A stretch of 64,000 nt of DNA. Source: Nakamurella alba. Its GTDB lineage: Bacteria; Actinomycetota; Actinomycetes; Mycobacteriales; Nakamurellaceae. Under the pieces are notes generated by a model. That model saw only the letters and a list, made by a program, of their open reading frames with translations. It was not told the origin of the DNA and did no database searches. Position 1 is the first letter of the stretch, and every line of letters begins with the position of its first letter. The DNA lies in contig NZ_WLYK01000006.1 in the NCBI RefSeq assembly GCF_009707545.1, positions 1 through 64,000 of the forward strand, in the 5' to 3' direction. The translations under genes were made by a program, and so were the position numbers. Positions 13,752 to 64,000 of this stretch are shown here, piece after piece.

Positions 13752-13756
13752 GGTGT

Positions 13757-17912: not shown

Positions 17913-17927
17913 CCCGATGGGAGAACC

Positions 17928-39526: not shown

Positions 39527-42500
39527 GTGTCGCATCCAGTGGACCCGCAGCTGCCGGGTGCCGAACGCATCGCCGTCATCGGCATGGCCGGCCGCTTCCC
39601 GGGCGCGGACGACGTGGACGAGTTCTGGTCGAACCTCGCAGGCGGCGTCGAGGCCTTCACCTCGTTCGACGACGATGACCTTCTCGCCGCCGGGGTGGAT
39701 CCCGCACAGCTGGCGGACCCGCGGTACGTCCGGGTCCGGCCGGTGCTGCGCGATGTGCGGTCCTTCGACGCGGAGTTCTTCGGGTACTCGCCGCGGGAGG
39801 CGGTGCTGACCGATCCGCAGCACCGGCTCTTCCTCGAGACCTCCTGGCAGGCCTTGGAATCCGCCGGCTACGCGAGCCCCGAGGACCGTGGTCAGGTCGG
39901 GGTGTTCGCCGGCTGCAACGTCAGCACCTACCTGCTCAGCCGGCCGAACGTGATGTCGCTCGGGGTGGACACCGACGCGCTGATGATCGGCAACGACAAG
40001 GATGCCCTGGCCACCGGTGTCGCCTACCGGCTCGACCTGCGCGGTCCGGCCGTCGCGGTGCAGACCTTCTGCTCCACCTCCCTGGTGGCCGTGCACCTGG
40101 CGAGCGAGGCGCTGCGGCAGGGCGACTGCGACCTCGCGCTGGCCGGCGGCGTGTCGATCCGCGTCCCGGACCGGGTCGGTCACCTGTACCAGGAGGGCAA
40201 CCAGGCCTCGCCGGACGGTCACGTCCGCACCTTCGACGCGCTGGGCCGGGGCAGCATGTTCGGCGACGGCGTGGCGGTGGTCGCGCTCAAGCGGCTGAAC
40301 CGGGCGCTCGCCGACCGGGACACCGTGCTGGCCGTGCTGCGCGGGAGCGCCATCAACAACGACGGCGGGGTCAAGTTCAGCTACCAGGCGCCGAGCATCG
40401 ACGGGCAACGCCGTTGCGTGGCGCGTGCTCTCGACCGGTCCGGGGTGCGGCCGGAGGAGATCTCCTACGTCGAGGCGCACGGGACCGCGACCGTGGTCGG
40501 CGACCCGATGGAGGTCGCGGCGCTCACCGACGCCTTCGGCAGCACCGCGCAGCGCCAGTTCTGCGTGCTGGGGTCGGTGAAACCCAACGTGGGTCACCTG
40601 GACCGGGCATCCGGCGCCACCGGTCTGATCAAGGTGGTCCAGTCCCTGCGGCACGAGATGATCCCCGGCACACTGCACTTCACCGCACCCAATCCCGACA
40701 TCGACTTCGCGGCCAGCCCGTTCCGGGTCACCTCCGGTCCCACCTCGTGGCCGCGGACCCCGGGTCGGCCGCGTCGCGCCGGGCTGTCCTCGCTCGGCAC
40801 CGGCGGCACGAACGCCCACGCCGTCGTCGAGGAGGCGCCGCTGCCGGCACCGCGGCCGCCCCGCCGGCGGCGCTGGCAGGTGCTGCCGGTGTCCGCCCGC
40901 ACCGAACAGGCCCGCGAGCAGGCCGCGGGGCGGCTGGCCGCTGCCCTGCAGCGGGACGTGGACCTCGATCTCGGCGACGTCGCGTACACGCTGCAGCAGG
41001 GCCGCCGGTCGATGGCGCACCGCACGGTGGTCGTCGCGGAGACCGGGACCGGTGCGGCCGCCGCACTGTCCGGGCCGCGGCCCAGCCGTCACGAGACGAC
41101 GGTCGGCCGCCCGGTGGGTCTGCTGATCGCCGGCGTCGGCGAGCAGTACCCGGGCATGGTCGCGGCCCTGATGACCGACGAGCCGGACTACCGGCGGGAC
41201 GTGCTGGAGTGTGTCGGCCTGCTGGGACTGCCCTCACCCGAGGCACTCTCGCCGATCTTCGCGACCGCCACCGCCGATCCGGTGGACGACGAGCTCGCCC
41301 GGCTGCTCGGCCGGGCCCCGACCCGGCCGGCCGCCACCGACCCGGCCCTGGTGCAGCCGGCGGTGTTCGTGGCGGAGTACGCGCTGGCCCGCCTGCTCCA
41401 GCGGTGGGGCGTGCAACCGGAGGTGATGCTGGGCTACAGCCTCGGCGAGTACGTCGCGGCCTGTCTGTCCGGGGTGCTCTCGCTGCCGGACGCGCTCGCG
41501 CTGGTCGCCCACCGGGCCCGGTTGATCGCCGCGCTGCCGTCCGGGGCGATGCTCGCCGTCGCCGCCGACGACCGGCGGATCCACGCCGTCCTGGGCTCCC
41601 TGGAGGATCGGGAACTCGACGTCGCGGTGCATACCCCGGGGCAGCTGACGCTGGCGGGCACGCTGCCGGCCGTCGCCGCGGCCGCCGCGGCACTCACGGC
41701 GGCGGGGATCGGGTGCCGGCAGCTGGACACCGCGTCCGCCTTTCACTCCCGCCTGCTGGCCCCCGCCGCCGCGCCGCTGACCGCGTGGGTGGCCGAGCAC
41801 ATCACCGTGCACCCGCCGCGTATCCCTTACGTGAGCAACGTGACCGGTGGGGTGGTCACTCCCGAGCTCCTCGCGGATCCGGGCTACTGGGCACGGCACA
41901 TGTGCGGCACCGTCGAGTTCGGGCGGGGCGCGAGCACGCTGCTGGCCGCCGTCCCGGACGCGATGCTGGTCGAGGTCGGGCCCGGCCAGTCGCTCGGCGC
42001 GTTGACCCGATCGCACCCGGACTGCGCCCAGGCGCGGTGGCCGCTGGTGACCGGCACCCTCCCGTCGGCGATGGAGCGGCGGGACCCGCACCAGGCGCTG
42101 GCCGAGACGGTCGGCCGGCTCTGGCTCTCCGGTGTGCCGGTGGACTTCAAGGCCCTGCACACCGAGGGATCCGACGGACCGCACTGGACACCCGGCCGGG
42201 TGCCCCTGCCGACGTATCCCTTCCAGCGCCAGGAGTACTGGCTGGAGGCACCGGAAGGGCCGGCCCCCGCGGCGGCCGGGGCCGCCACCGGGATCGATCT
42301 GTCCGATCCGACCGCCGTCCTCACCGCGCTGCCGAAACTGCCCGACGCCGAGTGGATCTCGACACCCACCTGGCGCTCGGAGGTGCTGCGGCCGCCGTCC
42401 GCCGCGCCGGCCACCTGGCTGGTGCACACCGCCGCCGGCGCCGGCGACGCGCTGGCCGAACCGCTGCTGCGGCGGCTCCGGGCGGAGGGCTCCACCGTGC

Positions 42501-44302
42501 TGACCCTGCGGCCGGGGCCCGGGTTCGCAATCACCGCCGACGGTTTCGAGGTCAGGCCGGGTGACCCGGCCGACATCGCTGCCGCCCTGCGGGTGGTCGT
42601 CGATCGCGGGCTGCGTCCGGATCGGATGCTGCACCTGTGGTCGCTGTCCGACGGCAGCACCGCGCGCGGGCTGTTCGCCGTCACCGCATTCGCCCGCGCC
42701 GCCGGGGATCTCGGCCTGGACGGCTGGATCATGGACCTGGTGGTGCAGGGCGCGCACGCGGTGCTGCCCGGCGACCGGGTCGACCCCGCCGGCGCGCTGC
42801 TCACCGGTCCCGCGCGGCTCGTCCCCGTCGAGTACCCCCGGTGCCGGACCCGGTTGATCGACCTGGGACCGGATCTGCACCCGGACGTGTTGGCCGCCGA
42901 GCTGCTGTCGCCGCCGACCGACCAGGTGGTCGCCCTGCGCGGGCGCCGCCGGTGGCTGCCCGGGCACAGCGTGGTCCCCGACACGACCGTCGTGGCACCC
43001 GGTTTCCGGCAGGGTGGGGTGTACCTGATCACCGGCGGGCTGGGCGGGATCGGCCTGGCGATGGCGATCCGGCTGGCCCGGGACGTGCGGGCCCGGCTGG
43101 TGCTGATGGGCCGCACCCCGGTGCCCGCCGAGCACGAGCGTGCCGCGGTGCTGGCCGCACCCGGCACCCCGGCGGAGGTGCGGCGCCGGCTGCTCGGGCT
43201 GCAGGAACTGGCGGACCTGGGCGCGGCCGTGCTCACCGTCACCGGTGACGTGTCGGAGCCGGAGGACGTCCGGCGGGCGGTCCGCCTGGCGGAGAGCAGT
43301 TTCGGGCCGTTGGACGGCGTGCTGCACTGCGCCGGGGTCCCCGCGCTCGGGCTGATGCAGTTCAAGACCGCCGCGGACATGGAGCGTGTGCTGGCCCCCA
43401 AGGTAGCCGGCACCAGGGCGCTGCTGGCGGCGCTGGCCGACCGGCCGCCGTCCTTCCTCGTGCTGTTCTCCTCCACCACCTCGATCACCGGTGGTGGCGC
43501 CGGCCAGGTCGACTACTGTGCCGCCAACGCCTATCTCGACGCCGTGGCGCAGTCGGACCCGCTGCCGGGCACGGTGGTGGTGTCGGTCGGCTGGGGCGAG
43601 TGGACCTGGAACGGCTGGACGGTCGGGCTGGACGGCTACGACGAGGGCTCGCGCCAGTTCTTCGAGGCCTACCGTGCGCAGTTCGGGGTCGACTTCGAGC
43701 AGGGCTGGCAGATCCTCGGCCGGGTGCTGGCCAGCGGCGAACGGCACGTGCACGTGTCCACCCAGGACCTGCCGACACTGGTGGCGATGAGCCGGCTCTC
43801 GTCCATCGAGCGGCACCAGGGCGCTGTCCGCAAGGCCCGGGACGCACTCGGGCGTCACCCCCGGCCGCCGCTGGGCACTCCGTACCAGGCCCCGGCGACA
43901 CCCGACCAGGAGGCGTTGGCCGGTCTCTGGTCGGAGGCCTTGGGGATCGAGGAGATCGGCGTCGACGACAACTTCTTCGAGCTCGGCGGCAACTCGCTGA
44001 TCGGGATGGAGATCATCGCCGGGGTGCGTGAGCAGCTGGGCGTGCCCTTCCTGCCGCCGCACATCCTCTACCAGGCACCGACCGTCGCGCTGCTCGCCGC
44101 CGAGGCGGCCGCCTCCCGGGCGGCCGTCCCGGCCACCGCAGGCACCGGCGACATCGCCGGGCCACCGGCCGGAGCAGGTCCTGGACACGGGCCGGAGCCC
44201 CGGCACGCCGCCGGCGCGGCGGCGTCCCCGGCCGCCACCGCGTCCGGCGAGGGCAACCGTTACCTGCAACGACGTCGCACCCTCGGAGGTGGTCGCGGAT
44301 GA
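39527..44302 (+). CDS. Type I polyketide synthase PKS1, one module: KS-AT-KR-ACP
   Basis: A 1591-residue single extension module. KS (about 14-430) has Cys182 in TFCSTSL, His318 in EAHGTA and His357 in NVGHLDRA. AT (about 530-880) has GVGEQYPGM in place of the usual GQGxQ motif, the active Ser638 in GYSLGEY and SAFHSRLL (HAFH-like, usually malonyl-selecting). After the linker LPTYPFQRQEYW come a reductase region with the Rossmann motif YLITGGLGGIG (about 1166) and catalytic Tyr in GGGAGQVDYCAAN, then ACP with the phosphopantetheine Ser1490 in FFELGGNSL. No DH, ER or TE. The Ala/Pro-rich tail may dock to another subunit. GTG start with GGGAGGACC; its stop overlaps PKS2 by ATGA. Confidence 0.95.
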   Translation: MSHPVDPQLPGAERIAVIGMAGRFPGADDVDEFWSNLAGGVEAFTSFDDDDLLAAGVDPAQLADPRYVRVRPVLRDVRSFDAEFFGYSPREAVLTDPQHRLFLETSWQALESAGYASPEDRGQVGVFAGCNVSTYLLSRPNVMSLGVDTDALMIGNDKDALATGVAYRLDLRGPAVAVQTFCSTSLVAVHLASEALRQGDCDLALAGGVSIRVPDRVGHLYQEGNQASPDGHVRTFDALGRGSMFGDGVAVVALKRLNRALADRDTVLAVLRGSAINNDGGVKFSYQAPSIDGQRRCVARALDRSGVRPEEISYVEAHGTATVVGDPMEVAALTDAFGSTAQRQFCVLGSVKPNVGHLDRASGATGLIKVVQSLRHEMIPGTLHFTAPNPDIDFAASPFRVTSGPTSWPRTPGRPRRAGLSSLGTGGTNAHAVVEEAPLPAPRPPRRRRWQVLPVSARTEQAREQAAGRLAAALQRDVDLDLGDVAYTLQQGRRSMAHRTVVVAETGTGAAAALSGPRPSRHETTVGRPVGLLIAGVGEQYPGMVAALMTDEPDYRRDVLECVGLLGLPSPEALSPIFATATADPVDDELARLLGRAPTRPAATDPALVQPAVFVAEYALARLLQRWGVQPEVMLGYSLGEYVAACLSGVLSLPDALALVAHRARLIAALPSGAMLAVAADDRRIHAVLGSLEDRELDVAVHTPGQLTLAGTLPAVAAAAAALTAAGIGCRQLDTASAFHSRLLAPAAAPLTAWVAEHITVHPPRIPYVSNVTGGVVTPELLADPGYWARHMCGTVEFGRGASTLLAAVPDAMLVEVGPGQSLGALTRSHPDCAQARWPLVTGTLPSAMERRDPHQALAETVGRLWLSGVPVDFKALHTEGSDGPHWTPGRVPLPTYPFQRQEYWLEAPEGPAPAAAGAATGIDLSDPTAVLTALPKLPDAEWISTPTWRSEVLRPPSAAPATWLVHTAAGAGDALAEPLLRRLRAEGSTVLTLRPGPGFAITADGFEVRPGDPADIAAALRVVVDRGLRPDRMLHLWSLSDGSTARGLFAVTAFARAAGDLGLDGWIMDLVVQGAHAVLPGDRVDPAGALLTGPARLVPVEYPRCRTRLIDLGPDLHPDVLAAELLSPPTDQVVALRGRRRWLPGHSVVPDTTVVAPGFRQGGVYLITGGLGGIGLAMAIRLARDVRARLVLMGRTPVPAEHERAAVLAAPGTPAEVRRRLLGLQELADLGAAVLTVTGDVSEPEDVRRAVRLAESSFGPLDGVLHCAGVPALGLMQFKTAADMERVLAPKVAGTRALLAALADRPPSFLVLFSSTTSITGGGAGQVDYCAANAYLDAVAQSDPLPGTVVVSVGWGEWTWNGWTVGLDGYDEGSRQFFEAYRAQFGVDFEQGWQILGRVLASGERHVHVSTQDLPTLVAMSRLSSIERHQGAVRKARDALGRHPRPPLGTPYQAPATPDQEALAGLWSEALGIEEIGVDDNFFELGGNSLIGMEIIAGVREQLGVPFLPPHILYQAPTVALLAAEAAASRAAVPATAGTGDIAGPPAGAGPGHGPEPRHAAGAAASPAATASGEGNRYLQRRRTLGGGRG

Positions 44303-47300
44303 GTCCGACCGACGGCAGCGCCGGGCAGACCCCGGTCACGGCACCGGGTGCACCGGCGGCGCCCGCGGATCCCGGATGGGACACCGACCACGGCGCCGCG
44401 GTCGCGGTGATCGGGATGGCCGGGCGCTTCCCGTCGGCGGCCGGGGTCGGTGAGCTGTGGTCCGCGCTGCTCGCCGGCACACCGGGCCTGCGCACCCTCG
44501 ACGAGCAGGAGCTGGCCGCGGCCGGGGTGTCCGCGGCCCAGCTGGCGGACCCGCAGTACGTCCGGGTCGGCGGGCCGGTGCCGGATCTGGAGATGTTCGA
44601 CGCCACGGTGTTCGGCATCGGTCCGCGTGAGGCGGAGACGATGGACCCGCAGCACCGGCTGTTCCTGGTGTCCTGCTGGGAGGCCCTGGAGTCGGCCGGC
44701 TACCAGCCCACCGACGTGCCGGGGCAGGTCGGCGTGTTCGGCGGCTGCGGTTTCCCGGACTACATCGTGCAGAACGTCCAGCACCTGACCGCGGAGCCGG
44801 GCGGGGCGCTGCTGCTGGCCACCGGGAACGAGCGCGACTCGCTCACCTCCCTGGTCTCGTACAAGTTCGGCTTCCGCGGTCCTTCCGTGGCGGTGCAGAC
44901 GTTCTGTTCCACCTCGCTGGTCGCGGTCCACCTGGCGTGTCAGTCGCTGCTCACCTACGAGTGCGACACCGCCCTCGCCGGAGGCGCTTTCACCCCGCTC
45001 CCGGCCGGCACCGGCTACCGGTACGAGCCGGGCGGCATCACCGCGCCGGACGGGGTGGTGCGCAGCTTCGACGCCGGCGCGTCCGGCACCGTGATGGGCA
45101 GCGGGGTCGGCGTCGTGGTGCTCAAGCGGATGGCCGACGCCGTGCGGGACGGCGACCTGGTCTCGGCGGTGATCCTCGGGTCCGCCACCAACAACGACGG
45201 CCGGGTCCGGGCCGGGTACACGGCGCCCGGCGTCGACGGGCAGGCGGAGGTCGTCGAGGCCGCGCTGGGCGTGGCCGGGGTCGACCCGGCGACCGTCGGT
45301 TACGTCGAGTGCCACGCCACCGGAACATCTCTCGGTGACTCCATCGAGCTGGCCGCGATGCGCCGGGTGTTCCCGCCGCGGGCGGATCCGTGCGTGCTCG
45401 GCACCGCCAAACCGATGCTGGGTCACCTGGACCGGGCGTCCGGGGTGACCGGTCTCATCCGGGCCTCGCTCGCGGTCCGGCACGGTGTGCAACCGGGCGT
45501 GCCCGGGTTCCGCAGCCCGAACACCGCGCTGGCCACCGACCGCTTCACCGTGCTGCCGGAGAATCGGTCGTGGCCGGACCAACCGGGCCCGCGGCGGGCC
45601 GGCGTCAGCTCGTTCGGCCTGGGCGGGACCAACGCCCACGTGGTCCTGGAGCAGGCACCACCCCGGCCGGCCCGGCCCGCGCGGCCCGGGCCGCACCTGC
45701 TGGTGCTGTCCGCGACCGGACCGGAGGCCCTGGACCGGGCCACTGCCCGGCTCCGCACCCACCTCGAGACACACGTCACGGACGTCGATCTCGCCGACGT
45801 CGCCTACACCCTGCAGGTCTCCCGCGGTGGGTTCGCGACCAGGCGCGCCGTGGTCGTCGACGACCTGCCCGACGCGCTCGCCGCACTCACCGATCCGTCC
45901 CGCTGGCTGGACGGGCGCACCACCAGGCGGCAACCACCGGTCGCCCTGCGCAGCGGTGAGTCGGCCGGCTCCGCGGTCGCGGCGCTCGCGGCGCTCGGGG
46001 TCACCGTCACCGGACAGGCCGAAGGCGCCGTCGAGATCGATTGGCCTGCCGATGGTTCCGCCGGCCACCCGGCCGCCGCCCGGTCCCGGCTGCTGGAGCT
46101 CGCGCGGCTGTGGCTGGCCGGGTCGGCCATCGACTGGTCGGCGCTGCACGGCGGGGCGGGCCTCCGGGTCGAACTCCCCACCTACCCGTTCGAGCGACGG
46201 CGCTACTGGGTGGACCCGGTCGCGTCGGCCGCCCCGGCGCGGCCGGTCGGCCGCAGCTGGGACCGTGACGACTGGACACTGCAGCCGGGATGGCGTGCCG
46301 TCCCGCACCCGGCACCCGGTGCCGACGGACTGCGCGAGGCCGGCCCGTGGCTGCTGCTCGGCACCGACCGCCGGTTGGACGCCGCCGCGGACCTGCTGCG
46401 ATCGGCCGGCGCGCTGGTGTTCACCGCCCGGCCCGGCCCGGAGTTCCGGACGACCGGAGACGGCTTCACCGTCCGGGTCGACGACCCGACCGACCTGGCC
46501 GCGCTGCTGACCGCGCTTCCGCCGATCGGTACCGTGCTGCACGGCTTCTCGCTGGGTGCACCGCACCTGCCGGTGATCGACTGGACCGCGGTCGAGGCGG
46601 CCCAGCGCCCCGGCACGGCGTCGGTCCAGGCTCTCGCGACGGTCCTCGCCGGACCGGCTGCCCGACCGGGGCCGCAGGGCCGGACCCGCGTCGTGCTGCT
46701 CACCGACGGTGCCGCCGACGTCGCCGGGGACCTCCGGCACCCGGAGCACGCCGGCATCCCCGCGCTGGCCCCGACCATCACCCAGGAGAACCCGCAGGTG
46801 CGCTGCCGGGCGGTCGATCTCGGCCCGGCACCCGGGTCCGCCGGTGGCACGCACCGTCAGGCACGCACATTGCTGGCGGCGGTGCTCGACGGGCACCAGG
46901 GGCCGGCAGCGGTGCGCGGCACGGACGTGCTGCACCGTGACTACCTCCCGCTGCCCACCGGCGCGCCGCGCGGCGATCTCTTCGTACCCGGCGAGACAGT
47001 CCTGATCACCGGTGGTCTCGGTGACGTCGGCCTGGCGGTGGCCGGGCGACTGGCGGACCTGGGCTGCCGGTTGGTGCTGACGACGCTGCATCGCATCCCG
47101 GAGGAGGGCGAACCGGCGGACCCGCGATCGGCCCGCCACCGGGAGTCGATCGACGCGCTACGGGCCCGGGGCGCCGACGTGCTGGCCCTGGCAGCCGACG
47201 TGGCCGATGCGGACCGGATGCGCGAGGTGGTCACCGCGGCGACCGACCGCTTCGGGCGCATCGACGCCGTCGTGCACGCCGCGGGACTGCAGGACGGGCG

Positions 47301-49381: not shown

Positions 49382-49408
49382 GGCCGGCCCGGGGTTCACG
49401 CCACGGGA

Positions 49409-49436
49409 GTGCCGACCGCCCGGCGGCGGCCGGCAC
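49409..49436. terminator. Hairpin between the convergent polyketide operons
   Basis: GTGCCGACCGCC (49409-49420) pairs with GGCGGCCGGCAC (49425-49436), 12 bp with one mismatch and a 4-nt loop, between the stops at 49381 and 49455. Confidence 0.55.
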
Positions 49437-49454
49437 GTCCCGCGCCCGGCACGG

Positions 49455-52515: not shown

Positions 52516-52763
52516 GCCGCGGTCAACCGCCCGACCAGCTCCGTCATCTTCTCTGCCGTGCGGAAGTTGTCGATCCGCAGCTCGTCGTTGGGAACGGTGA
52601 CGCCGAAGGTCTTCTCGACGAACATCACCAGCTCCATGGCGAACAGCGAGTTGACGAAGCCGAGCTGGAAGATGTCCTGGTCCGGCTCGATCTCCACCTG
52701 CGGGTAGCGGCCCTTGATGAAGGACAGGATCTGGTCGCGGGCGTCGGTGGTGGCAAGGGTCAT
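52512..52763 (-). CDS. fkbJ: FkbJ-like acyl carrier protein
   Basis: An 83-residue discrete ACP. The phosphopantetheine site is FQLGFVNSLFAMELV, the GFVNSL form seen in ACPs of methoxymalonyl and hydroxymalonyl extender pathways in place of the common LGxDSL. It should hold the glycerate-derived unit while FkbH, FkbI and FkbK modify it and hand it to an acyltransferase. CGGAGAC precedes the ATG. Overlaps fkbI by four bases; fkbK lies 86 bp upstream. Confidence 0.93.
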   Translation of the reverse strand: MTLATTDARDQILSFIKGRYPQVEIEPDQDIFQLGFVNSLFAMELVMFVEKTFGVTVPNDELRIDNFRTAEKMTELVGRLTAA

Positions 52764-53725: not shown

Positions 53726-53897
53726 GGCTGAACTCCTTGCTGGTCGGGGGCCGGCGGTCGGGGTGGTGCTGCCGGTGCTGCGATTGCGGGACAGGCGGTT
53801 GCGGGAAGGGCGGTGGCGGGACGAGCGGTGGCGGCATGTGGCGCGCCGGCGGGCGGACCGGCACCGGGTGGCACCGCAACCCGCGCGCGAAAAGTGG

Positions 53898-56800
53898 TCA
53901 TGCATCCTCCCGGGCCCGGCGGCGGGCGGAGGCCTGCAGGCCGGACCGGCGCAGCTGTGCGCGGACCGTGGAGGATCCGCCCTCGGCCTCCTGATCACCC
54001 CCGGCACTCCCGTCCCCACCGGACCCGGCCAGGTCCGCGGGATCCAGCGCAGCGGCCCCGACGGCGAGCGCGAGCGTCGCCACGGTAGGAGCTTCGTAGA
54101 GGATGTGCGGAGGCAGGTCGTCCAGCTGCTGGTGCTCCCGGACCGCGGCGACGATCCCGACCCCGAGCAGCGAGTTCCCGCCGAGCTCGAAGAAGTTGTC
54201 CAGCACCCCGACCTGTTCCAGATGCAAGGCCTCGCACCAGGTCCGGGCGATGAACAGCTCGAGGTCCCCGACCGGCTCCTGGTACGGCGTGAGCAGGTCG
54301 GGACGCGGGTGGCGGGGTCCGGTCGGCCGGCGCCCACCACCGGTGCCGGCCACCGCCTCGACGGTGAACAGTCGGCTGCCGGTGGTCAACGTGGTGGCGT
54401 CCTGGCTGCAGACCACCACCCGCGGTTCCCCGGTGGCCAACGCTCGCGCAGCGGCGCGCAGGCCTGCGGCGACCCCGATGCCGATCCGCGCGCGGTTGTC
54501 GACGAAGAACTGCTGCACCGCCGGGTCGTACCCGGCGAGCCCGTCCTCCCAGGCGTTGTCGGTCCACTCGCCCCAGTCGATGGCCAGCACCCGGCGTCCC
54601 GGCGCGTTCCACTGCAGGGCGCGGCTGCCCAGCACCGCGTTCCCCGCCGCGTAGTCGTACTGGCCGGGTCCGCCTCCGGTGAAGGCCGCGATCGAGGAGA
54701 ACAGCACCAGGTGGTCCAACCGGATCTCGTCGGGCCCGCCGATCCGGAGCGCCTCGGCCAGAGCGCGCAGACCGGTGACCTTCGGGTCGGCGGCGGCACC
54801 GGCCTGGTCCGGTTCCTTGTAGAGCACCAGCCCGCGACCGGCGGTGCCCGCCATGTGCCACACCCCGTCCAGCCGGCCGTACCGCTGCTGCGCGGTCTCC
54901 ACGGCCCGGCGAACTGCCGCGGTGTCGGTGACATCACCGACCACCACCTCGACCTCGGACCCGGCCGCGAGGATCTCCGCGCAGCCCGCCAACCGGCGGC
55001 GCAGCCCCGGGTCGGTCGAGGGGTCGGCCAGCAGGGCGGCCCACGCGGACCGCTCCGGCAGCGGGCGCCGGGCCAGCAGCACGAAGGTGCACGGCGCCTG
55101 CCCGGCCAGTTCGCGGGCCACCTGCAGGGCCAGGGTGCCCAGACCACCGGTGATCAGGTAGCAGCCGCCGGCCCGGGCGATCGGGCCGCCGTTGTCGGCG
55201 AGCGCTGTTCCCGCAGTTGCAGTTCCAATTGCAGTTCCAGTCGCCGTTGCAGTCGCAGCGGCGGTGGCACCGCCAGGAGCAGCGGCACCGGCAGGACCCG
55301 GAGCACCAGCAGTGGCCGGCAGCGTGCGGAAACCCGGGACGAACCGGCGACCACCGCGCAGCACCACCACCGGGTCGTCACCGGCGCCGGCCAGTTCGGC
55401 CGCCAGCGCCGCGTCCGTCCGCGGGTCGGCGGGGCCGGCGATGTCGGGGAGATCGATCCAGCTGACCTGCAGACCCGGGAACTCCAGCGGCAGCACCAGC
55501 GCCGGGCCGGCGGCCGACGCCGCCTCCGGATCGGTGACGGGCTCGCCGGCGACGGACTGCGCGCCGTGCGTGAGGATCTCGAGGCGCCAGTCCCGCCAGC
55601 CGCTCTCGCCGGCGGCGCGGGCCAGCGCCGCCGCCACGCCCAGCAGCGCCGCGGGCGAGCGGTCCACCACCAGGGTGACCCGGTCCGGCAACGCGTCCGC
55701 GTCCCGCCACTCCCGGACCAGCTGCCGGGCCCGTTCCAGGTCGGCGCCCAGGCGGACCGGGGCCCCTGCGGCACCGTCCATTCCGGGGACGGCGGGAGTG
55801 CCGGCGCTGCAGGGGGTGTCGAGCACGACGCGACGCAGCGGACGGCCGGCCGCCGGCGGTGGCGGCGTCGGGTCGAAGACCGGGAGCTGCAGCCAGTCCT
55901 TCTCCTCGAGCACCGGCAGCGCGCCGATCACCTCCAGCAGGTTCTCGCTCGTCGGCGCGGCCGGGACTGCCCCGGACCCGCCGCCGGCGGACATGGACCG
56001 GGTGCGGTCCAGCCAGTACCGCCGGCGCTGGAACGCATAGGTGGGCAAGGGGACCCGGTGCGGCTGCGCGTCGGCCTGCAGCGGCGCCGGACCGGACCGG
56101 CCGGCAACCGCCGTCCAGTCGAGATCCACGCCGAGCAGCCACATCCGGGCCAGTGCGTCGGCCACCGTGCGGTCCGCCGGTGCGGGCTCGGCGGCGCCGG
56201 GCAGGGTCGGCAGCACCTGACCCCAGCGGTCCGGCGGGAGCGCGGCCCGCAGCAGCGCCCCCAGCGACTGGCCGGCCCCGATCTCGACCACTGCGGCCTG
56301 GCTGTCGGTGGCGTCCCGGACCAGGACCGCGGTCTGGTCGGCGAACCGGACGGTGCCGCACATGTGCCGCGCCCAGTACCCGGGGTCGGCGACCAGTCCG
56401 GCGGTCGCCGGTCCGCCGGTGACGTTGGAGGTGTACGGGATCTGCGGGGCGGACGGGGTGATGTTCCCGGCCACCCACTCGGTCAGCGCGGCGGCGACCG
56501 GCTCCAGCATCCGGCTGTGGAAGGCGTGCGTGGTCGCGAGGGCCCGGGCCGCGATCCCGGCCCGGCGCAGCTCCGCCTGGTAGGCCTCGGCGGCCTCGAC
56601 CGGGCCGGCGACGACCGTGACCCCCGGTCCGTTGAGCGCAGCGATGTCCAGACCGAAGGCTGCCGGGTCGCAGCGCTCCGCCAACTCGGCCTCGCCGAGC
56701 CCCACGGCCACCATCGCACCGCCGGGCAGCCCGGCGATCAGCCGCGCCCGGTGGGCCACCAACCGGACGGCCTCCGGCAGCGTGAGCACGCCCGACAGTG

Positions 56801-59800
56801 CGGCCGCCACGTACTCGCCCAGGCTGTACCCGACCATCCCGACGGGTTCGACACCCCAGTCCATCAGCGTGCGGGCCAGGGCCCACTCCGCGGCGAACAC
56901 CAGCGGCTGCACCAGCTCGGTCCGGGCCAGCTCCCGGCTGCGGGCATCCGGCTCCGGCGCACGACCGAGCATCGCGGCCAGCCCACCGCCGGCATCCGGC
57001 CGGGCACCGCAGAGCAGGTCACGCAGGTCGACACCGGTCGCCTGCTCCTCCCCGGCCAGCAGGCCGAGCACCTCGTCCAGCCGGGCCGCGAAGGCCGGCT
57101 CGCGGCGGGCGAGCTCGCCGACCATGCCCGGGTACTGCTCGCCGACCCCGTCCAGCAGCAGGGCCACCGGCCGGCCGCGCAGCGCCTCCGCGCGGCGCAG
57201 CAGGCCGTCCCCGCCGGCGAAGGCCGCGGACGCCGACAGCAGGTCGCCCGCCACCACCACCGCCCGGTGCTCGAAGACCGTCCGGCCGGTCTGCAGGGTG
57301 TACGCCACGTCGGCCGGGGCGAGGACGTGGCTGCCGAGGTGATCCGCCATCCGGGTCAGCCCGTCGTCCATCGCCGGCCCGGTCCTGGCCGACACGGGCA
57401 GGACGTGGAAGCGCCGGTCGCGCAACGGATCCGGCAGCACGAGCGGCCGGACCGGTGGTTCCTGCACCACCACGTGGACGTTGGTCCCGCCCATCCCGAG
57501 CGAGTTCAGCCCGGCGATCCGCGGTCGATCGCCCGCCGCCCAGGCGGTCTGCGTATCGACCACCCGGAAGGGCCCGGCCGCGAAGTCGATCTCCGGATTG
57601 GGCGCGGTGTAGTGCAGGGTGGCCGGCAGGTGTCCCTCCCGCACCGCCAACGCCGTCTTGATCAGACCGGTGGCGCCCGCGGCGCGGTCCAGGTGCCCGA
57701 CATTGGTCTTCACCGAACCGATCCCGCAGGATCCCGGGTCGCCGGCGGCACCCGTCGCGGCGAATGCCATCGTCAGTGCCGCCACCTCGATCGGGTCGCC
57801 GAGTTCGGTGCCCGTCCCGTGCGCCTCGACGTACCCGACGTCGGCGCCGCGCACCCCCGCGTCCGCGAGCGCGTCCGCGACCACCCGCGCCTGGCCGACC
57901 ACACTCGGCGCGGTGAAGCCGACCTTGCGCGACCCGTCGTTGTTCATCGCCGAACCCCTGATCACGGCGGTGATGTCGTCGCCGTCGCGCAGGGCAGCAT
58001 CCAGCCGCTTGAGGACCACGACCGCGGCGCCGTCACCGAACATGCTCCCCCGGGCCGCGGCGTCGAAGGCCCGTACGTGCCCGTCCGGCGACTCCTGGCC
58101 GCCCGGGGCGAAGTGGTGCCCCACCCGGTCCGGGGTGCGGATCGACACCCCGCCGGCCAGGGCCATCTCGCAGTCCCCGGCGCGCAGTGCCTGCACGGCC
58201 AGGTGGGTGGCGACCAAGGAGGTCGAGCAGAACGTCTGCACCGCGACGCTCGGCCCGCGCAGGTCGAACAGGTAGCTGACGTTCGTGGTGAGCGCGTCCT
58301 TCTCGTTGCCCATGATGATCTCGTAGGTGCTCACGTCGCCACCGGTGAACACCTCGTCCGGCATGTGCAGGAGGTAGGTCGAGAGGTTGCAGCCGCCGTA
58401 GACGCCGACCCGCGGCCGGTGCTCGGGCGCCCCGTACCCGGCGGATTCCAGTGCCTCCCAGCACACCTCGAGGAAGATGCGCTGCTGGGGGTCGGTGAGC
58501 GCCGCCATCCGCGGGCTGAGGCCGAAGAACGCGGCGTCGAACCCGGCGACGTCGTCCAGCACCGGGCGGGCCGGGACGTAGCCGGGGGCGGTGAACTCGG
58601 CCTCCGGCACCCCGGCGGCGCGCAGCTCGTCCTGGTCGAAGAAGCTGATCGACTCGTCGCCGGCACACAGGTTGCGCCAGAAGGCGGCGACGTCCGCGGC
58701 TCCGGGGAAACGGCCTGCCATACCGATGATGGCGATGTGCCGGTCGGTGTCCTCGACCGTCCCCGGGATCCCGAGCGGCGGGACCGGGAGTGCCGGGCCG
58801 ACCGGTGCGGGTGCACCCGGGATCCCGGCCTGACGTGGTGCGGGAGCCGGCGGAGACAGGACCGGGACGACGGCGGTCGCGTTGGCGCCGTCGAGCACCT
58901 CGGCGAGACCCTGCACGGTCGGCGACTCGAACAGCCGCACGGTCGGCACGGTGACCCCGTACTCCCGCCCGAGCAGGGTGAGCATCTGCAGTGCCAGCAG
59001 CGAGTTGCCGGACAGGTCGAAGAAGTTGTCGCGCAACCCGACCGGCTCCACACCGAGTACGGCGGACCAGATCTCGGCGACCCGTCGCTGGATGGCCGTC
59101 CGCGGCGGCAGGTACGGCTGCGGCAGGTCCGGGCGCGGGACCCGTGGTCCGTCGAGGACCGGCATCGGTACCAGGTCCGCGCCCGGTCCCACCGTCCCGG
59201 ACAGCCGGTCCGTCAGTCCGCCGGCGACCACCGCGGTCACCGACCGTCCGCCGGCCAGCACCGCGTCGAGCGCGGCGAGCGCACGGTCGGTCGCCATGGC
59301 GTGGACCCGCATACCGGCGCCGACCGGACCGCCGTCGTCGGCCGGCAGGGTGTCGGCCCAGGTGTCCCAGAGCACGGTGGACCAGCGGGTGCCGGCCGGG
59401 GCGGTGCTGCCCACGGCGACCAGCGCGGCGTTGGCCGCCGCGTAGCTGCCGAACGCGATGCCGCCGAGGATCGCCGAGGTCGAGGAGAACGTCAGGCAGA
59501 AGTCCGGCCGCCCGGACTCCGGCCGGTCGGCCACGGCGGCCGCCAGTGCCCGCGCGCCGTCCAGCTTCGCGCCGAGATGGGCGGCCACGCAGTCGTCGTC
59601 GAGCATCCCGAGCGGCCGGAAGGTCTCCCGCCGGGTGTCCGCGGCGGCGTGCAGCACACCGGCGACCCCGTCCAGCAGCCGACCCAGCAGCGCCGGGTCG
59701 CGGACGTCGCCGCGCACCGCCTCCACCATCACGTCCCGCGCGCGCCACGCCTCGATCGCCTGCGTCGCTGCGGGTCCCGGCTCCGATCTGCCCAGCAGGA

Positions 59801-62339
59801 CCAGCCGGCCGGCGCCCGCCTCGACCAGGTGGTCCGCCAGCCGCAGCCCGAGCGGACCCAGTCCACCGGTGACGAGGTAGGCGGCACCGGCACGGATCGC
59901 GCTGCCGACAGCACCTTCGGGGGCGTCGGCGTGATCGGCGCCGACCGGGCTCCCCGAGCGGTGACCGGCCGGAACCGGCTGCCAGTCCGGCACCAGCAGC
60001 CGACCGTCCCGCCAGGCACCGAGCGGTACCGACATCGCGGCCGGGAAGTGTTCCGCGACAGTGTGTTCGACGGCCGGTGTCGTCTCGGGAGCGACGCGAC
60101 CGACGGTGGCCGGCAGATCGAGGACGGCCGTCCGCAGCCCCGGGTACTCGGCACGGGCCGCGGTCAGCAGCCCGGCCAGTCCGGCCGCCCCGGGGTCGGC
60201 CGGCTCCCCGGACACGCTCTGCCCACCGCGGGTCAGCAACAGGTAGCCCTGTCCGCCGGCACCGGACGCACCCAGCCGATCGACGGTCGCGGCCACCGGG
60301 GCGATCGCCGACGCCAGGTCGGCGACCGGGCCGGCGGCGAACCGGAGGTCGACCACCGTGCCCGCCGGCGGCGGGCCGTCCGGGTCGATGCCGGACAGCT
60401 CCGTCACCTCCAGGCCGGCCGCACCGAGGGCGAGCGCGCAGGGTCCCGTGAGTGCGGGATCACCGAGCAGGAACCAGGTCCCGGACCCCGGCGGTGCCGC
60501 GTCCGACCATTCGCTCCACACCGGCATCACCAGCTCGACCGGAACGGGTCCTGCCGGGGCCGGATCCGGCAGGGCCGTCGCGGACGGAGCGGCCGGGCCC
60601 GCGGCCGGCGGATCGACCCACCAGCGGCGGCGGTCCAGCGGGTGACCCGGCACGGACACCTTGCGCGGTGCGTCCGTCGGCAGCTCGACGGCCCAGTCGA
60701 TCGACTCCCCCTGCAGCCAGCGGAGTCCCAGGGCCGGGAGCGGTCCGGCCGCGGAGGCCCCGGTGAGCAGGGCACCCGACCGCAGCGCGGCGACAGCGGC
60801 GGACCGGTCGGTGACCACCAGCGCACGGCGATGGGTGAACTCCTTGCGACCCACCCGGAGGGTGTGGGCCACCGCGTCGAGCGGCGTCGTGTCCCGCTCC
60901 AGCAGGTCGGCCAGATCGCGGGTCAGCCGGTCCGCGGCCTCGGCGGTGCGGCCGGACCAGACGAGCAGCTGCGCGGCCGGTGCCGGGTGCGGCGCCACCG
61001 GTACCGGCGGCGCCTCCTCCAGCACCACATGTGCGTTGGTGCCGCCGATCCCGAAGGCGCTCACGCCGGCGTAACGCGGCTGCTCCGACCGTGGCCAGTC
61101 GGTCCGCTGCGTGACCACCGAGATCGCCGCGGTACCGAGCGCCAGCTGCGGGTTCGGGGTGCGCAGGTTACGGGTGGCCGGGATGACGCCGTGGTGCAGC
61201 GAGAGCGCCGTCTTGATCAGCCCGGTCACCCCGGCCGCGCGGTCGAGGTGACCCACATTGGTCTTGACCGATCCCACCCGGACCTCGGTACCTGCGAAGA
61301 CCTGTTGCAGGGCTGCGATCTCGGCCGCGTCGCCGAGTGCCGTCCCGGTGCCGTGCGCCTCGACGTAGCCGATCTGTCCGGGGGTCACGTCGGCCGCGGC
61401 GAGTGCCTCGCCGATGACCGCGGCCTGCCCGGCCGGCCCGGGAGCGGTGAACCCCACCTTGTGCCCGCCGTCGTTGTTGACCGCCCAGCCGCGCAGGACC
61501 GCGTAGACCCGGTCGCCGTCGGCCAGCGCGTCGGACAGCCGGCGCAGCGCCACCACCGCGACGCCGCCGCCCAGCGGCGCACCGGCACCGTCGGCGTCGA
61601 AGGCCCGGCACTCCCCGTCCGGCGGCAGGATCCCGCCGGGCTGGTAGTGGTAGCCGACCCGGTGCGGGACCGACACCGCCGCACCCCCGGCCAGGGCCAG
61701 GTCGCACTCGAAGGCGGCCAGCGACGACGCCGCCGCGCAGACGGCGACGAGCGAGGTGCTGCAGTAGCTCTGGATGCCGTAGGCGGGGCCGGTCAGCCCT
61801 AGCACGTGGGCGACCCGCAGCACCAGCGAGTCCTTGTCGTTGGCCAGGCCGAGGGCGAGTTCGCCGACCACGTCACCGAGGCCGGCCGGGCCCAGGTTGT
61901 TCTGCAGGTACGTCGAGTAGGCGCTGCCGCCGAACACCCCGATCGCGCCGTCGAAACGGTCCGGGTCGCACCCGGCGTCCTCCAGTGCCCGCCACGAGTG
62001 CTCCAGGAACAACCGGTGCTGCGGATCGAGGATCTGCGCCTCCGCCGGTCCGAACCCGAAGAAGCCGGCGTCGAACAGGTCCACGCCGTCCAGCACCGCA
62101 CCCGCGCGGACGTAGGCCGGGTCGGCCAGTCGCTCCGCCGGCACCCCGGCCGCCAGCAGATCCTGTTCGGAGAACCGGGTGATCCCCGACTCCCCCGCCA
62201 GCAACCGCTCCCACAGCCGACCGGCGTCCGCGGCCCCGGGGAACATCCCGGAGAGTCCGACCAGTGCGATGTCGCCGTCCGACACCGTAGGTGCAGCAGG
62301 TGATGTCGGATCGGCGGTGTGGTGTCCCGGAACGCTCAC
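53898..62339 (-). CDS. Type I polyketide synthase PKS3, two modules: KS-KR-ACP-KS-AT-KR-ACP
   Basis: A 2813-residue bimodular synthase. Module 1: KS with Cys193 (SYCSTSL), EAHGTGT and NVGHLDRA; no AT (VAHTLRV at ~490 runs within about 70 residues into GHPLDRRRWW at ~561); KR with YLVTGGLGPLG (~820) and Tyr in IAFGSYAAAN; ACP Ser1113 (FFDLSGNSL). Module 2: KS with Cys1371 (TFCSTSL); AT with GVGEQYPGM, Ser1839 (GYSLGEY) and HAFHSRML (malonyl-type); KR with YLITGGLGTLALQVA (~2390), where the third Rossmann Gly is Ala, and Tyr in GGGPGQYDYAAGN; ACP Ser2723 (FFELGGNSL). No DH, ER or TE. GTG start overlapping the upstream PKS stop by four bases. The strand opposite carries a very long spurious ORF. 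Confidence 0.95.
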   Translation of the reverse strand: MSVPGHHTADPTSPAAPTVSDGDIALVGLSGMFPGAADAGRLWERLLAGESGITRFSEQDLLAAGVPAERLADPAYVRAGAVLDGVDLFDAGFFGFGPAEAQILDPQHRLFLEHSWRALEDAGCDPDRFDGAIGVFGGSAYSTYLQNNLGPAGLGDVVGELALGLANDKDSLVLRVAHVLGLTGPAYGIQSYCSTSLVAVCAAASSLAAFECDLALAGGAAVSVPHRVGYHYQPGGILPPDGECRAFDADGAGAPLGGGVAVVALRRLSDALADGDRVYAVLRGWAVNNDGGHKVGFTAPGPAGQAAVIGEALAAADVTPGQIGYVEAHGTGTALGDAAEIAALQQVFAGTEVRVGSVKTNVGHLDRAAGVTGLIKTALSLHHGVIPATRNLRTPNPQLALGTAAISVVTQRTDWPRSEQPRYAGVSAFGIGGTNAHVVLEEAPPVPVAPHPAPAAQLLVWSGRTAEAADRLTRDLADLLERDTTPLDAVAHTLRVGRKEFTHRRALVVTDRSAAVAALRSGALLTGASAAGPLPALGLRWLQGESIDWAVELPTDAPRKVSVPGHPLDRRRWWVDPPAAGPAAPSATALPDPAPAGPVPVELVMPVWSEWSDAAPPGSGTWFLLGDPALTGPCALALGAAGLEVTELSGIDPDGPPPAGTVVDLRFAAGPVADLASAIAPVAATVDRLGASGAGGQGYLLLTRGGQSVSGEPADPGAAGLAGLLTAARAEYPGLRTAVLDLPATVGRVAPETTPAVEHTVAEHFPAAMSVPLGAWRDGRLLVPDWQPVPAGHRSGSPVGADHADAPEGAVGSAIRAGAAYLVTGGLGPLGLRLADHLVEAGAGRLVLLGRSEPGPAATQAIEAWRARDVMVEAVRGDVRDPALLGRLLDGVAGVLHAAADTRRETFRPLGMLDDDCVAAHLGAKLDGARALAAAVADRPESGRPDFCLTFSSTSAILGGIAFGSYAAANAALVAVGSTAPAGTRWSTVLWDTWADTLPADDGGPVGAGMRVHAMATDRALAALDAVLAGGRSVTAVVAGGLTDRLSGTVGPGADLVPMPVLDGPRVPRPDLPQPYLPPRTAIQRRVAEIWSAVLGVEPVGLRDNFFDLSGNSLLALQMLTLLGREYGVTVPTVRLFESPTVQGLAEVLDGANATAVVPVLSPPAPAPRQAGIPGAPAPVGPALPVPPLGIPGTVEDTDRHIAIIGMAGRFPGAADVAAFWRNLCAGDESISFFDQDELRAAGVPEAEFTAPGYVPARPVLDDVAGFDAAFFGLSPRMAALTDPQQRIFLEVCWEALESAGYGAPEHRPRVGVYGGCNLSTYLLHMPDEVFTGGDVSTYEIIMGNEKDALTTNVSYLFDLRGPSVAVQTFCSTSLVATHLAVQALRAGDCEMALAGGVSIRTPDRVGHHFAPGGQESPDGHVRAFDAAARGSMFGDGAAVVVLKRLDAALRDGDDITAVIRGSAMNNDGSRKVGFTAPSVVGQARVVADALADAGVRGADVGYVEAHGTGTELGDPIEVAALTMAFAATGAAGDPGSCGIGSVKTNVGHLDRAAGATGLIKTALAVREGHLPATLHYTAPNPEIDFAAGPFRVVDTQTAWAAGDRPRIAGLNSLGMGGTNVHVVVQEPPVRPLVLPDPLRDRRFHVLPVSARTGPAMDDGLTRMADHLGSHVLAPADVAYTLQTGRTVFEHRAVVVAGDLLSASAAFAGGDGLLRRAEALRGRPVALLLDGVGEQYPGMVGELARREPAFAARLDEVLGLLAGEEQATGVDLRDLLCGARPDAGGGLAAMLGRAPEPDARSRELARTELVQPLVFAAEWALARTLMDWGVEPVGMVGYSLGEYVAAALSGVLTLPEAVRLVAHRARLIAGLPGGAMVAVGLGEAELAERCDPAAFGLDIAALNGPGVTVVAGPVEAAEAYQAELRRAGIAARALATTHAFHSRMLEPVAAALTEWVAGNITPSAPQIPYTSNVTGGPATAGLVADPGYWARHMCGTVRFADQTAVLVRDATDSQAAVVEIGAGQSLGALLRAALPPDRWGQVLPTLPGAAEPAPADRTVADALARMWLLGVDLDWTAVAGRSGPAPLQADAQPHRVPLPTYAFQRRRYWLDRTRSMSAGGGSGAVPAAPTSENLLEVIGALPVLEEKDWLQLPVFDPTPPPPAAGRPLRRVVLDTPCSAGTPAVPGMDGAAGAPVRLGADLERARQLVREWRDADALPDRVTLVVDRSPAALLGVAAALARAAGESGWRDWRLEILTHGAQSVAGEPVTDPEAASAAGPALVLPLEFPGLQVSWIDLPDIAGPADPRTDAALAAELAGAGDDPVVVLRGGRRFVPGFRTLPATAGAPGPAGAAAPGGATAAATATATGTAIGTATAGTALADNGGPIARAGGCYLITGGLGTLALQVARELAGQAPCTFVLLARRPLPERSAWAALLADPSTDPGLRRRLAGCAEILAAGSEVEVVVGDVTDTAAVRRAVETAQQRYGRLDGVWHMAGTAGRGLVLYKEPDQAGAAADPKVTGLRALAEALRIGGPDEIRLDHLVLFSSIAAFTGGGPGQYDYAAGNAVLGSRALQWNAPGRRVLAIDWGEWTDNAWEDGLAGYDPAVQQFFVDNRARIGIGVAAGLRAAARALATGEPRVVVCSQDATTLTTGSRLFTVEAVAGTGGGRRPTGPRHPRPDLLTPYQEPVGDLELFIARTWCEALHLEQVGVLDNFFELGGNSLLGVGIVAAVREHQQLDDLPPHILYEAPTVATLALAVGAAALDPADLAGSGGDGSAGGDQEAEGGSSTVRAQLRRSGLQASARRRAREDA

Positions 62340-64000
62340 AGGGCCTCCTCGTTGCGGGCCACCCGGGCCCGGCGTCGTCGCGCGCCACGGGCGGCGCTGC
62401 CGGCCAGCAGGGCGGCGGCCGGTTCCGCCGCGCCACCTCCGGGCCCGCCGAGTGCGGCCGCGAACTCGGCCACCGTCGGGTGCTGGTAGAGCGCGGCCGG
62501 TGGGATCGGCCGGTCCAGTCGCAGCTCCAGTTCCCGCACCATGGCGGCACCGACCAGCGAGTTGCCACCGAGATCGAAGAACGGGTCACGGATCCCGACG
62601 GCGTCGATGCCGAGGAACTCGCCCCACACGTCCGCGACGATGCTCTGCAGGCTCTCCGGCCCGCCGGTGGGCGGGGCGTAGGCGACGCGGAGGTCCGGGC
62701 GCGGGAACCGTGGTCGGGCCGCGGCTGCCGCCCTGGCCGCGGCGGTGAGCGCATCCAGGTCCAGCAGGGCGGTGAAGGACTGCTCCGCCTCCTGCAGGGA
62801 CTGCCGGAGCGCCAGCACCGGACCATCGGTGCCGTGCAGCTGCAGCAGCAGGTCGCAGCCGTCGGCGGCGCCGAAACCGAACCGGCGGCGGTACGCGGTG
62901 GCCTGCTCGGCCAACGGGCCACCGGCCCGCTGCTGCCAGTCGTCGTGCTGCCAGGGCGCCCATCCGACCGACAGGACCCGCAGGCCCGGCCGGGCCTCGT
63001 CGGCCCACGCGGCCGCAGCGGCGTCCAGGGCCGTGTTGGCGGCGCAGTAGTCGCCCTCGCCGAGACCGCCGAAAGCGGTGACCGCCGAGGAGTAGAGCAC
63101 CACCGTCCGCAGCGCCGGCGAGCTGTCGATCAGCTCCGAGACCACCTCGAGCGGAGCCAGTTTCGGCAGCAGCACGGCACGGGACCGCACCGCGTCCGAC
63201 GCCTGGGCCATGCCACCGGCCGGCACCCCGGCGGCGTGCACCAGGACCTCCGGGGCACCCAGTTCCGCCGTGCAGGCCGCGACGGCCGCTCGCAGCTGTC
63301 GCGGGTCGGCGGCGTCCGCCACCAGCACCCGGACCGTTGCGCCCGCGGCAGTGAGATCATCGACCAGTTCGGCACTGTCGGTCGTCCCGCGGGACAGCAG
63401 GGCGATCCGGCGCACCCCGTCGGCCACCAGCCGCCGGGCCAGCAGCGCACCCAGACCGCGGGTGCCGCCGGTGATCAGGTGGACCCCGTCCGTCGGCCAC
63501 GGCAGGGTCTCCGGCTCCAGCAGTTCCGCCCACTCCGGCCGGTGCCGGCGCCCGGCCCTTCGGGCGACGACCTCGGGCCGGGGCGGCAGGGTCAGTTCGG
63601 CCAGGAGCGCCGCGGCGCAGTCCGCCACGTCCGCCCGGGGATCGAGATCGATGCCGGACCAGGACATCCCGGCGTACTCGTGGCGGACGGAGCGACCCAG
63701 GCCGTGGGCCGCGGCGGTGAGCGGGGCGCGCGCATCGCCCCCGGTGACCAGCTGCGCGCCACAGGTGACCGTCAGCAGGCGGGCCGGGCCACCGGCGGCA
63801 CCGAGGGCCTGGACGGCGGCGAGGGTGTCGTCGAAGGCGAACGGCAGCGCCGCGGCGGGGTCCCACCGGGCACCGGGCGCGACCGCTCCGACCGACGACA
63901 GCTGCACCAGCTGCACCGGGCCGGCGGCGAGTGCGACGGCCTCGCGGACCGCCTCCGCGGCGGTCAGCCCGTCGGTCACCGTCAGCACCGGATGGCCGAG
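62336..64000 (-). CDS. Type I polyketide synthase PKS4, C-terminal part (KR-ACP), cut by window edge
   Basis: The frame is open through base 64000, so at least a KS (and perhaps AT) lies outside. The visible ~554 residues are a KR with its N-terminal structural half (VQLVQLSSVGAVAPGARWD), the Rossmann motif GVHLITGGTRGLGALLA and catalytic Tyr in GGLGEGDYCAANTALDA, then ACP with Ser (codon 62558-62560) in DPFFDLGGNSLVGAAMV. The C-terminus is Arg/Ala-rich. It is the upstream partner of PKS3, to which its stop is coupled, and probably hands its chain to PKS3 module 1. Confidence 0.92.
   Translation of the reverse strand, partial: LGHPVLTVTDGLTAAEAVREAVALAAGPVQLVQLSSVGAVAPGARWDPAAALPFAFDDTLAAVQALGAAGGPARLLTVTCGAQLVTGGDARAPLTAAAHGLGRSVRHEYAGMSWSGIDLDPRADVADCAAALLAELTLPPRPEVVARRAGRRHRPEWAELLEPETLPWPTDGVHLITGGTRGLGALLARRLVADGVRRIALLSRGTTDSAELVDDLTAAGATVRVLVADAADPRQLRAAVAACTAELGAPEVLVHAAGVPAGGMAQASDAVRSRAVLLPKLAPLEVVSELIDSSPALRTVVLYSSAVTAFGGLGEGDYCAANTALDAAAAAWADEARPGLRVLSVGWAPWQHDDWQQRAGGPLAEQATAYRRRFGFGAADGCDLLLQLHGTDGPVLALRQSLQEAEQSFTALLDLDALTAAARAAAAARPRFPRPDLRVAYAPPTGGPESLQSIVADVWGEFLGIDAVGIRDPFFDLGGNSLVGAAMVRELELRLDRPIPPAALYQHPTVAEFAAALGGPGGGAAEPAAALLAGSAARGARRRRARVARNEEAL

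Follow-up and report, generated by a model that had tools for sequence, protein, structure and literature searches.

Among the closest described systems to the one considered here is butyrolactol, whose carbons C1-C8 took up label from glucose but none from acetate (PMC5355916, accessible part), and whose published domain table (PMC5932044, accessible part) gives module 2 of ORF 10-16 as ketosynthase (KS), ketoreductase (KR) and acyl carrier protein (ACP), and ORF 10-18 as KS, dehydratase (DH), KR and ACP, i.e., both without an acyltransferase (AT). Taken in order, these two AT-less modules make C7-C8 and C1-C2, and so, as far as the accessible parts of both sources go, AT-less modules of this family seem to use hydroxymalonyl there; the joining of the labelling to the table is our own, and neither "AT domain" nor "lacks" was found in the accessible part of PMC5355916. 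Here, we describe a polyketide synthase (PKS) cluster of this kind in Nakamurella alba (RefSeq assembly GCF_009707545.1, a draft of 6.05 Mb in 29 contigs). The window analysed is the first 64,000 nucleotides of contig NZ_WLYK01000006.1 (C6:1-64000); the cluster passes the window end and extends to about C6:84250, C6 having been read on to 121999. Its polyol part consists of five KR-only modules, three of them AT-less, and we consider it likely, judging from sequence, that the ATs of PKS1 and of module 2 of PKS3 (PKS3M2) load hydroxymalonyl in trans onto the AT-less modules of this butyrolactol-kind PKS. Relative to a preliminary description of the window, new elements are one more module without AT, the genes supplying hydroxymalonyl, the relative timing of the losses, the finding of no free AT besides FabD, and a series of living, dead, and absent ATs across the family, in which one stripped module looks like a new trans-AT. 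The modules of the polyol part are as follows.

39527-44302, forward strand: PKS1, KS-AT-KR-ACP (Pfam)
41114-42028, forward strand: AT domain of PKS1, with GYSLG and SAFH motifs, a candidate in-trans hydroxymalonyl loader
44299-48222, forward strand: PKS2, KS-(no AT)-KR-ACP, the terminal module (Pfam)
45664-46983, forward strand: KS-to-KR linker of PKS2, with the KS-AT linker and LPTYPFx5W motif retained and the AT body gone
53898-62339, reverse strand: PKS3, KS-(no AT)-KR-ACP-KS-AT-KR-ACP
56226-57167, reverse strand: AT of PKS3M2, with GYSLG and HAFH motifs, a candidate in-trans hydroxymalonyl loader
59889-61004, reverse strand: KS-to-KR linker of PKS3 module 1 (PKS3M1), AT excised
C6:62336-65953, reverse strand: PKS4, docking-KS-(no AT)-KR-ACP, its 3' part (62336-64000) in the window

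The absence of an AT from PKS2, PKS3M1, and PKS4 is confirmed as real. Pfam Acyl_transf_1 gave no match in PKS2 at E<=1, no AT was found by Pfam in PKS4 at E<=0.01, and at that same threshold PKS3 shows KS, KR, and ACP twice each, yet a single AT stretch, located in module 2. The KS-to-KR gap measures 373 aa in PKS3M1, 442 aa in PKS2, and 368 aa in PKS4, against 724 aa in PKS1 and 761 aa in PKS3M2, and about 280-395 residues are absent from the AT-less modules, close to the ~285-340 of the preliminary description. That description had already told the AT-less PKS2 and PKS3M1 from the AT-bearing PKS1 and PKS3M2, an assignment borne out by Pfam and by filter-free profile scoring; its two AT-less modules stand, and PKS4, of which it had only the 3' part in view, brings the total to three. 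It had also named a hidden AT in the linkers as a finding that would overturn the picture, and none was found by profile: in an unfiltered search with a hidden Markov model (HMM) built from 18 ATs of the same type, scores were -2.9 to 0.9 bits for the three linkers and 419-436 bits for three intact modules. The AT-less modules have kept their KS-AT linker and a motif of LPTYPF type (that of PKS2 read by eye), and the KS Cys-His-His residues are intact in PKS2, PKS3M1, and PKS4. The KR Ser-Tyr-Asn residues are present in PKS4 by pattern and in PKS2 and PKS3M1 by eye, the pattern having missed both, while the ACP serine is present in PKS2 and PKS4 by pattern and in PKS3M1 by eye. An AlphaFold model of the PKS3M1 KS-linker segment, from 14 rows, was too poor for use (mean pLDDT, the predicted local distance difference test, 46.5).

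Genes for extender supply adjoin the PKS genes, namely fkbH, fkbI, fkbJ (ACP), fkbK, and a type II thioesterase (TE-II), one of the features by which we recognise a butyrolactol-kind cluster.

49455-50273, reverse strand: TE-II, start codon uncertain (Pfam Thioesterase)
50249-51334, reverse strand: FkbH, predicted glyceryl-ACP formation (TIGR01686, 276.6 bits, cut-off 146.65)
51331-52515, reverse strand: FkbI-like acyl-CoA dehydrogenase (Pfam)
52512-52763, reverse strand: FkbJ-like free-standing ACP (Pfam PP-binding)
52850-53725, reverse strand: FkbK-like 3-hydroxyacyl-CoA dehydrogenase (Pfam 3HCDH_N and 3HCDH)

No O-methyltransferase match was seen among the cluster genes scanned, and hydroxymalonyl is thus expected rather than methoxymalonyl. 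Of the five ATs embedded in the cluster's PKSs, four belong to extension modules. For the AT of PKS3M2, the one AT searched against the PDB, the best match is 4qbu (151 bits), the structure of ZmaA-AT, a hydroxymalonyl-ACP AT (PMC4207774, accessible part), and the catalytic Ser and His and the conserved Arg are present. With respect to the RXR rule for ACP-dependent ATs, taken from the accessible part of PMC4207774, by which both end positions of the motif are hydrophobic, the first residue is non-basic in 36/36 GYS-type ATs of the family and basic in 18 of the 22 other ATs of these clusters (read by eye, with a GQS motif and a truncated domain counted among the 22). A PF00698 search of the N. 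alba genome at E<=0.001 returned six AT places, five in the cluster and one FabD-like gene (C1:1447053, a 333-codon frame, FabD-like by size), and no other free AT for the cluster.

From homology, FkbH, FkbJ, FkbK, and FkbI would build the hydroxymalonyl unit while it is bound to the small free ACP, and the PKS1 and PKS3M2 ATs would accept it, charging both their own ACPs and, in trans, those of PKS4, PKS3M1, and PKS2; the extender identity and the in-trans transfer are what we infer here. With the module order PKS4-PKS3-PKS1-PKS2, as suggested by orthologous positions, all five modules would add a hydroxymalonyl unit, each KR would reduce the previous carbonyl, and the predicted product would be a sugar-like polyketide with an unusually long contiguous run of oxygenated (hydroxylated) carbons, about eleven by module count. 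The preliminary description had expected an AT acting in trans, from a neighbouring module or from a free AT outside the window: past position 64000 and in the whole genome, the search found no free AT for the cluster and only the FabD-like gene on C1, so that the candidates are FabD and the ATs of neighbouring modules. Its suggestion of a non-malonyl extender has gained backing from the fkbH/I/J/K set, from ZmaA-AT as best solved relative of the PKS3M2 AT, and from the butyrolactol labelling, and its remark that such hybrids are known but unusual agrees with the butyrolactol domain table, which already has two modules without AT (PMC5932044, accessible part).

The order of the losses was read from a census of 52 clusters including that of N. 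alba (51 relatives), with 267 modules after 2 of 269 had been removed as too short or too low in KS identity. Two family searches found 30 and 34 genomes, of which 19 and 30, hand-chosen in favour of odd ones, were examined together with G069, the butyrolactol-type cluster L113 of S. cattleyicolor, and N. alba; stretches of about 24-75 kb were read, some clusters being only partly in view, and one locus (contig 81 of G1027) gave no PKS module. In a KS tree of 76 domains, clades follow module position, the KS of L113 falling in the terminal, PKS3M1, PKS3M2/PKS1, and PKS4 clades. The terminal clade (PKS2) is AT-less in 32 of 33 rows, N. alba counted, the remaining row being cut, and its KS Cys-His-His residues are kept in 33/33. 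At the PKS3M1 position an AT is present in 48 of 50 rows, N. alba counted (33 complete modules and 15 rows without a called ACP), the exceptions being a dead remnant in G892 and the AT-less module of N. alba. The PKS4 clade is mixed, with 28 of 46 rows AT-bearing (N. alba counted), 14 with remnants, and 4 without AT (N. alba, G1043, G218, and G114), and ATs are present in all 57 rows of the PKS3M2/PKS1 clade and in 8/8 loading modules. N. alba, with three of five polyol modules AT-less, has the most among the 52 clusters, the others having at most two.

By these counts, the loss in PKS2 is old and predates the diversification of the sampled family, since 31/31 readable relatives are AT-less, while the losses in PKS3M1 and PKS4 are later, in this lineage, because the AT is kept in 48/49 and 28/45 relatives, respectively; the earlier idea of cis-AT modules that lost their AT thus holds for PKS3M1 and PKS4, and for PKS2 points to an old loss. 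On parsimony, the PKS4 clade needs two changes and the PKS3M1 clade another two, and a single loss for all 18 AT-lacking PKS4-type rows was rejected by the approximately unbiased (AU) test (p-AU 0.0123, on a quick tree, with the trait-based grouping of rows chosen once an earlier tree was known, and with the N. alba PKS4 on a long branch). Terminal clade included, the rows suggest at least five AT deaths or losses, exceptions among the coenzyme A (CoA)-type modules being additional.

Further observations made in these clusters concern their modules and supply genes. In L065 (13613-16567, G281) and in the terminal modules of G1205 and G1218 (L163-L166), KS and ACP are present with no KR on domain search (984-997 aa). 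A CoA-type module without a working AT directly precedes the polyol run in G1078 and G1088 (L175-L178) and in G218 (L067-L069); in G218 (L067), fkbI is split over two frames, by sequencing error or decay.

The AT remnants of the family retain traces of their decay. Outside N. alba, the HAFH motif is absent from 21/21 AT-lacking rows read, and where the nucleophile motif is readable (14 of these 21), serine has become glycine in 14/14. Remnants matching the profile align to its columns 1-55, 84-139, and 229-304, approximately, with a continuous match in two rows that starts at 1 or 2 and ends at 133-139; the part containing the catalytic histidine is thus missing; in N. alba, the AT body is gone. 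Decay apparently proceeded by loss of the nucleophile and of the catalytic-His stretch, and then by excision of the body.

In 14 clusters, the PKS3M1 orthologue stops after the AT, leaving a KS-AT didomain, for example:

L070, 11684-14368: didomain with dead KS and intact AT
L071, 11442-14378: didomain with dead KS and intact AT
L072, 7571-10366: didomain with dead KS and intact AT

In all 14, the KS has Ser for Cys and its first His replaced, the serine and histidine motifs of the AT are kept (14/14), and no KR or ACP was found in the three checked with Pfam. They form one branch (SH-aLRT 100, the Shimodaira-Hasegawa-like approximate likelihood ratio test) and thus reflect one event, not 13, although the PKS4-type module is without a working AT in 13/13 didomain clusters where it is in view. 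That PKS4-type loss is older than the didomain, being common to L113, G218, G1078, and G1088, whose PKS3M1 module is complete. In G114, G084, and G325, the 60 kb read around the didomain contain no intact GYS-type AT other than its own, and between G084 and G114 the dead KS is 57% conserved against 72-74% for live KS, and the didomain AT 66% against 61% for the neighbouring AT. A didomain AT without an ACP of its own would be most simply explained by in-trans loading of a neighbour. G1037 (L173-L174) was considered as a didomain with a live KS and excluded from the 14, as its ACP lies in another frame, which may be sequencing error or decay. No didomain gene is among the six AT places of the N. 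alba genome, and in searches of the open-licence literature we found no paper that deals with AT loss in the butyrolactol-kind family or with in-trans action of a dead-KS/AT didomain.

Taken together, we lean, with some reserve, towards a family caught moving from cis-AT to trans-AT, in which the ATs of hydroxymalonyl modules would die repeatedly and in steps, a few survivors would serve the other polyol modules, and one branch would have stripped a module to a dead KS and a living AT, i.e., a newly born trans-AT. To our knowledge, arguments on how AT-less modules originate from AT-bearing ones have mostly relied on old systems in which the change is complete; here, a single family shows ATs that are intact, dying, or absent at orthologous positions, the extender probably being the same, which makes the transition testable and gives a rare view of self-sufficient assembly lines turning into shared-enzyme ones. 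For PKS engineering, the natural AT deletion boundaries, which keep KS, linker, KR, and ACP in frame, would be useful, as would the candidate hydroxymalonyl loaders.

Several points weigh against these readings. First, the presence of at least one intact AT in every census cluster holds by construction, as clusters were found by AT query and any with no surviving AT of this kind would have escaped it. Second, ATs are present in 70 of 73 CoA-type modules, and the three without (in G1078, G1088, and G218) mean that loss is not confined to polyol modules. Third, the ratio of nonsynonymous to synonymous change (pN/pS) between G084 and G325 is 0.351 for the kept AT and 0.330 for the dead KS, values that are not separated. 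Fourth, the KS of PKS4 is a long branch (0.48 and 0.65 in two trees), which may reflect relaxed constraint and makes its placement less sure. Fifth, the third RXR residue is Arg in 34/36 GYS-type ATs, where ZmaA has Met-Cys-Met, so that the ACP-type signature is half matched. Sixth, at E<=1e-30 a relative of the PKS3M2-type AT turns up in 178 of 397 genomes from the order, most of them unexamined, and similarity alone therefore does not name the extender. Lastly, FabD could load malonyl.

This last point leads to a rival in which housekeeping FabD, the one free AT that the genome search returned, loads malonyl in trans onto the AT-less modules, with no extra hydroxyl at those positions. We regard this as improbable, because the AT-bearing orthologues of PKS3M1 (48/50) and PKS4 (28/46) have the GYS motif of polyol ATs, and because the AT-less positions of butyrolactol, C1-C2 and C7-C8, have glucose label and no acetate label (again by our joining of the accessible parts of PMC5355916 and PMC5932044).

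About equally unlikely, in our judgement, is that the AT-less modules are inactive relics, either skipped or replaced by a neighbouring AT-bearing module working twice. Such iteration of the previous module has been invoked to explain a dead terminal AT in irumamycin (PMC11672594, accessible part), and the long PKS4 branch would suit it; the KS, KR, and ACP residues of PKS2, PKS3M1, and PKS4 are, however, intact (partly by eye), Cys-His-His persists throughout the terminal AT-less clade (33/33), and the butyrolactol modules fit the labelled carbons only with the AT-less ones working (our joining of the accessible parts of PMC5355916 and PMC5932044). Loading in trans by the PKS1 and PKS3M2 ATs remains the preferred explanation.

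A third rival, that the AT-less modules were imported from a trans-AT PKS and never were cis-AT, has very little in its favour. The best PDB match of the PKS3M1 KS is 4wky (507.5 bits), which we take to be a KS of the oxazolomycin trans-AT PKS, but the KS of the AT-bearing PKS1 matches it about equally (503.1 bits), the nearest KS by identity to PKS3M1 (77%) and PKS4 (64%) belong to AT-bearing modules at the same position, and the PKS4 clade holds intact, remnant, and absent ATs side by side. That the missing ATs are an assembly artefact is hardly credible even in a draft genome of 29 contigs, since C6:39000-81000 contains no N and no internal repeat >60 bases above 76.2% identity, which makes assembly collapse unlikely, reading frames are continuous through all three junctions, and 31 other assemblies likewise have no AT at the PKS2 position.

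The remaining features of the cluster are given here.

37800-38651 (ATPase) and 38629-39438 (permease), forward strand: ABC transporter pair upstream of PKS1 (Pfam ABC_tran and ABC2_membrane)
48212-49381, forward strand: second acyl-CoA-dehydrogenase-like gene
C6:66021-71759, reverse strand: PKS5, KS-AT-DH-KR-ACP
C6:71756-80299 as called, reverse strand: PKS6, KS-AT-ACP-KS-AT-DH-KR-ACP, its first KS with Gln for Cys
Listed after PKS6, reverse strand: AMP-binding ligase-like gene, regulator-like gene, and phosphopantetheinyl transferase

The second acyl-CoA-dehydrogenase-like gene accompanies polyol genes in 23 of 51 relatives and was not seen in 40.9 kb of L113. Domain search gave no thioesterase domain match in any PKS of the cluster, and product release may depend on TE-II or on lactone formation. 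PKS2 carries an Ala/Gly/Asp-rich tail C-terminal to its ACP. Elsewhere in the window, a gene run at 7295-23043 (forward strand) may resemble glycine-betaine/sarcosine catabolism, by protein size, order, and starts. At the DNA level, plasmid relatives were limited to six records with short matches covering <=2% of the query, and a search of a genome contig collection for close PKS2 relatives gave a single weak match (31% identity). Sixteen other genomes of the genus, most judged from the match list, gave a best match of 46% identity over KS, and the two that were read (G016 and G001) hold other PKS- or nonribosomal peptide synthetase (NRPS)-like genes, not this layout.

Compared with known systems, the N. 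alba cluster is like the butyrolactol A PKS (Streptomyces sp. TP-A0882; L113 on pSCAT, Streptantibioticus cattleyicolor) in its consecutive KR-only modules, its fkbK-J-I-H-TE-II genes, its terminal AT-less module, and, for L113, KS domains in the same position clades. The first polyol module of butyrolactol is without AT in the TP-A0882 table (accessible part) and in L113 retains the remnant of a dead AT. The polyol modules of butyrolactol number four, of which that part of the table lists two without AT, whereas N. alba has five, three of them AT-less; the PKS3M1 AT, kept in L113 and in the same TP-A0882 table, is lost in N. alba, where PKS1 and PKS2 also lie on the opposite strand with the second acyl-CoA dehydrogenase and the upstream modules differ. 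Zwittermicin A shares hydroxymalonyl-ACP and ATs accepting ACP-bound extenders (PMC4207774 and PMC6164871, accessible parts); there, the cis AT ZmaA is for hydroxymalonyl and the discrete AT ZmaF for aminomalonyl, whereas in N. alba no free AT was found beyond the FabD-like gene and the cis ATs would serve other modules. Canonical trans-AT PKSs, e.g., bacillaene, likewise have KS-linker-KR-ACP modules without AT, in which an LPTYPFx5W-type motif closes the linker (PMC11260071, accessible part), but the ATs of N. alba are embedded in other modules, its extension modules are not all AT-less, and, FabD aside, no free-standing AT was found for those that are. The didomains of the related clusters resemble PKS3M1 of N. 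alba in that their KS falls in the PKS3M1 clade and differ from it in their dead KS and their want of KR and ACP, so that such an AT could act only in trans.

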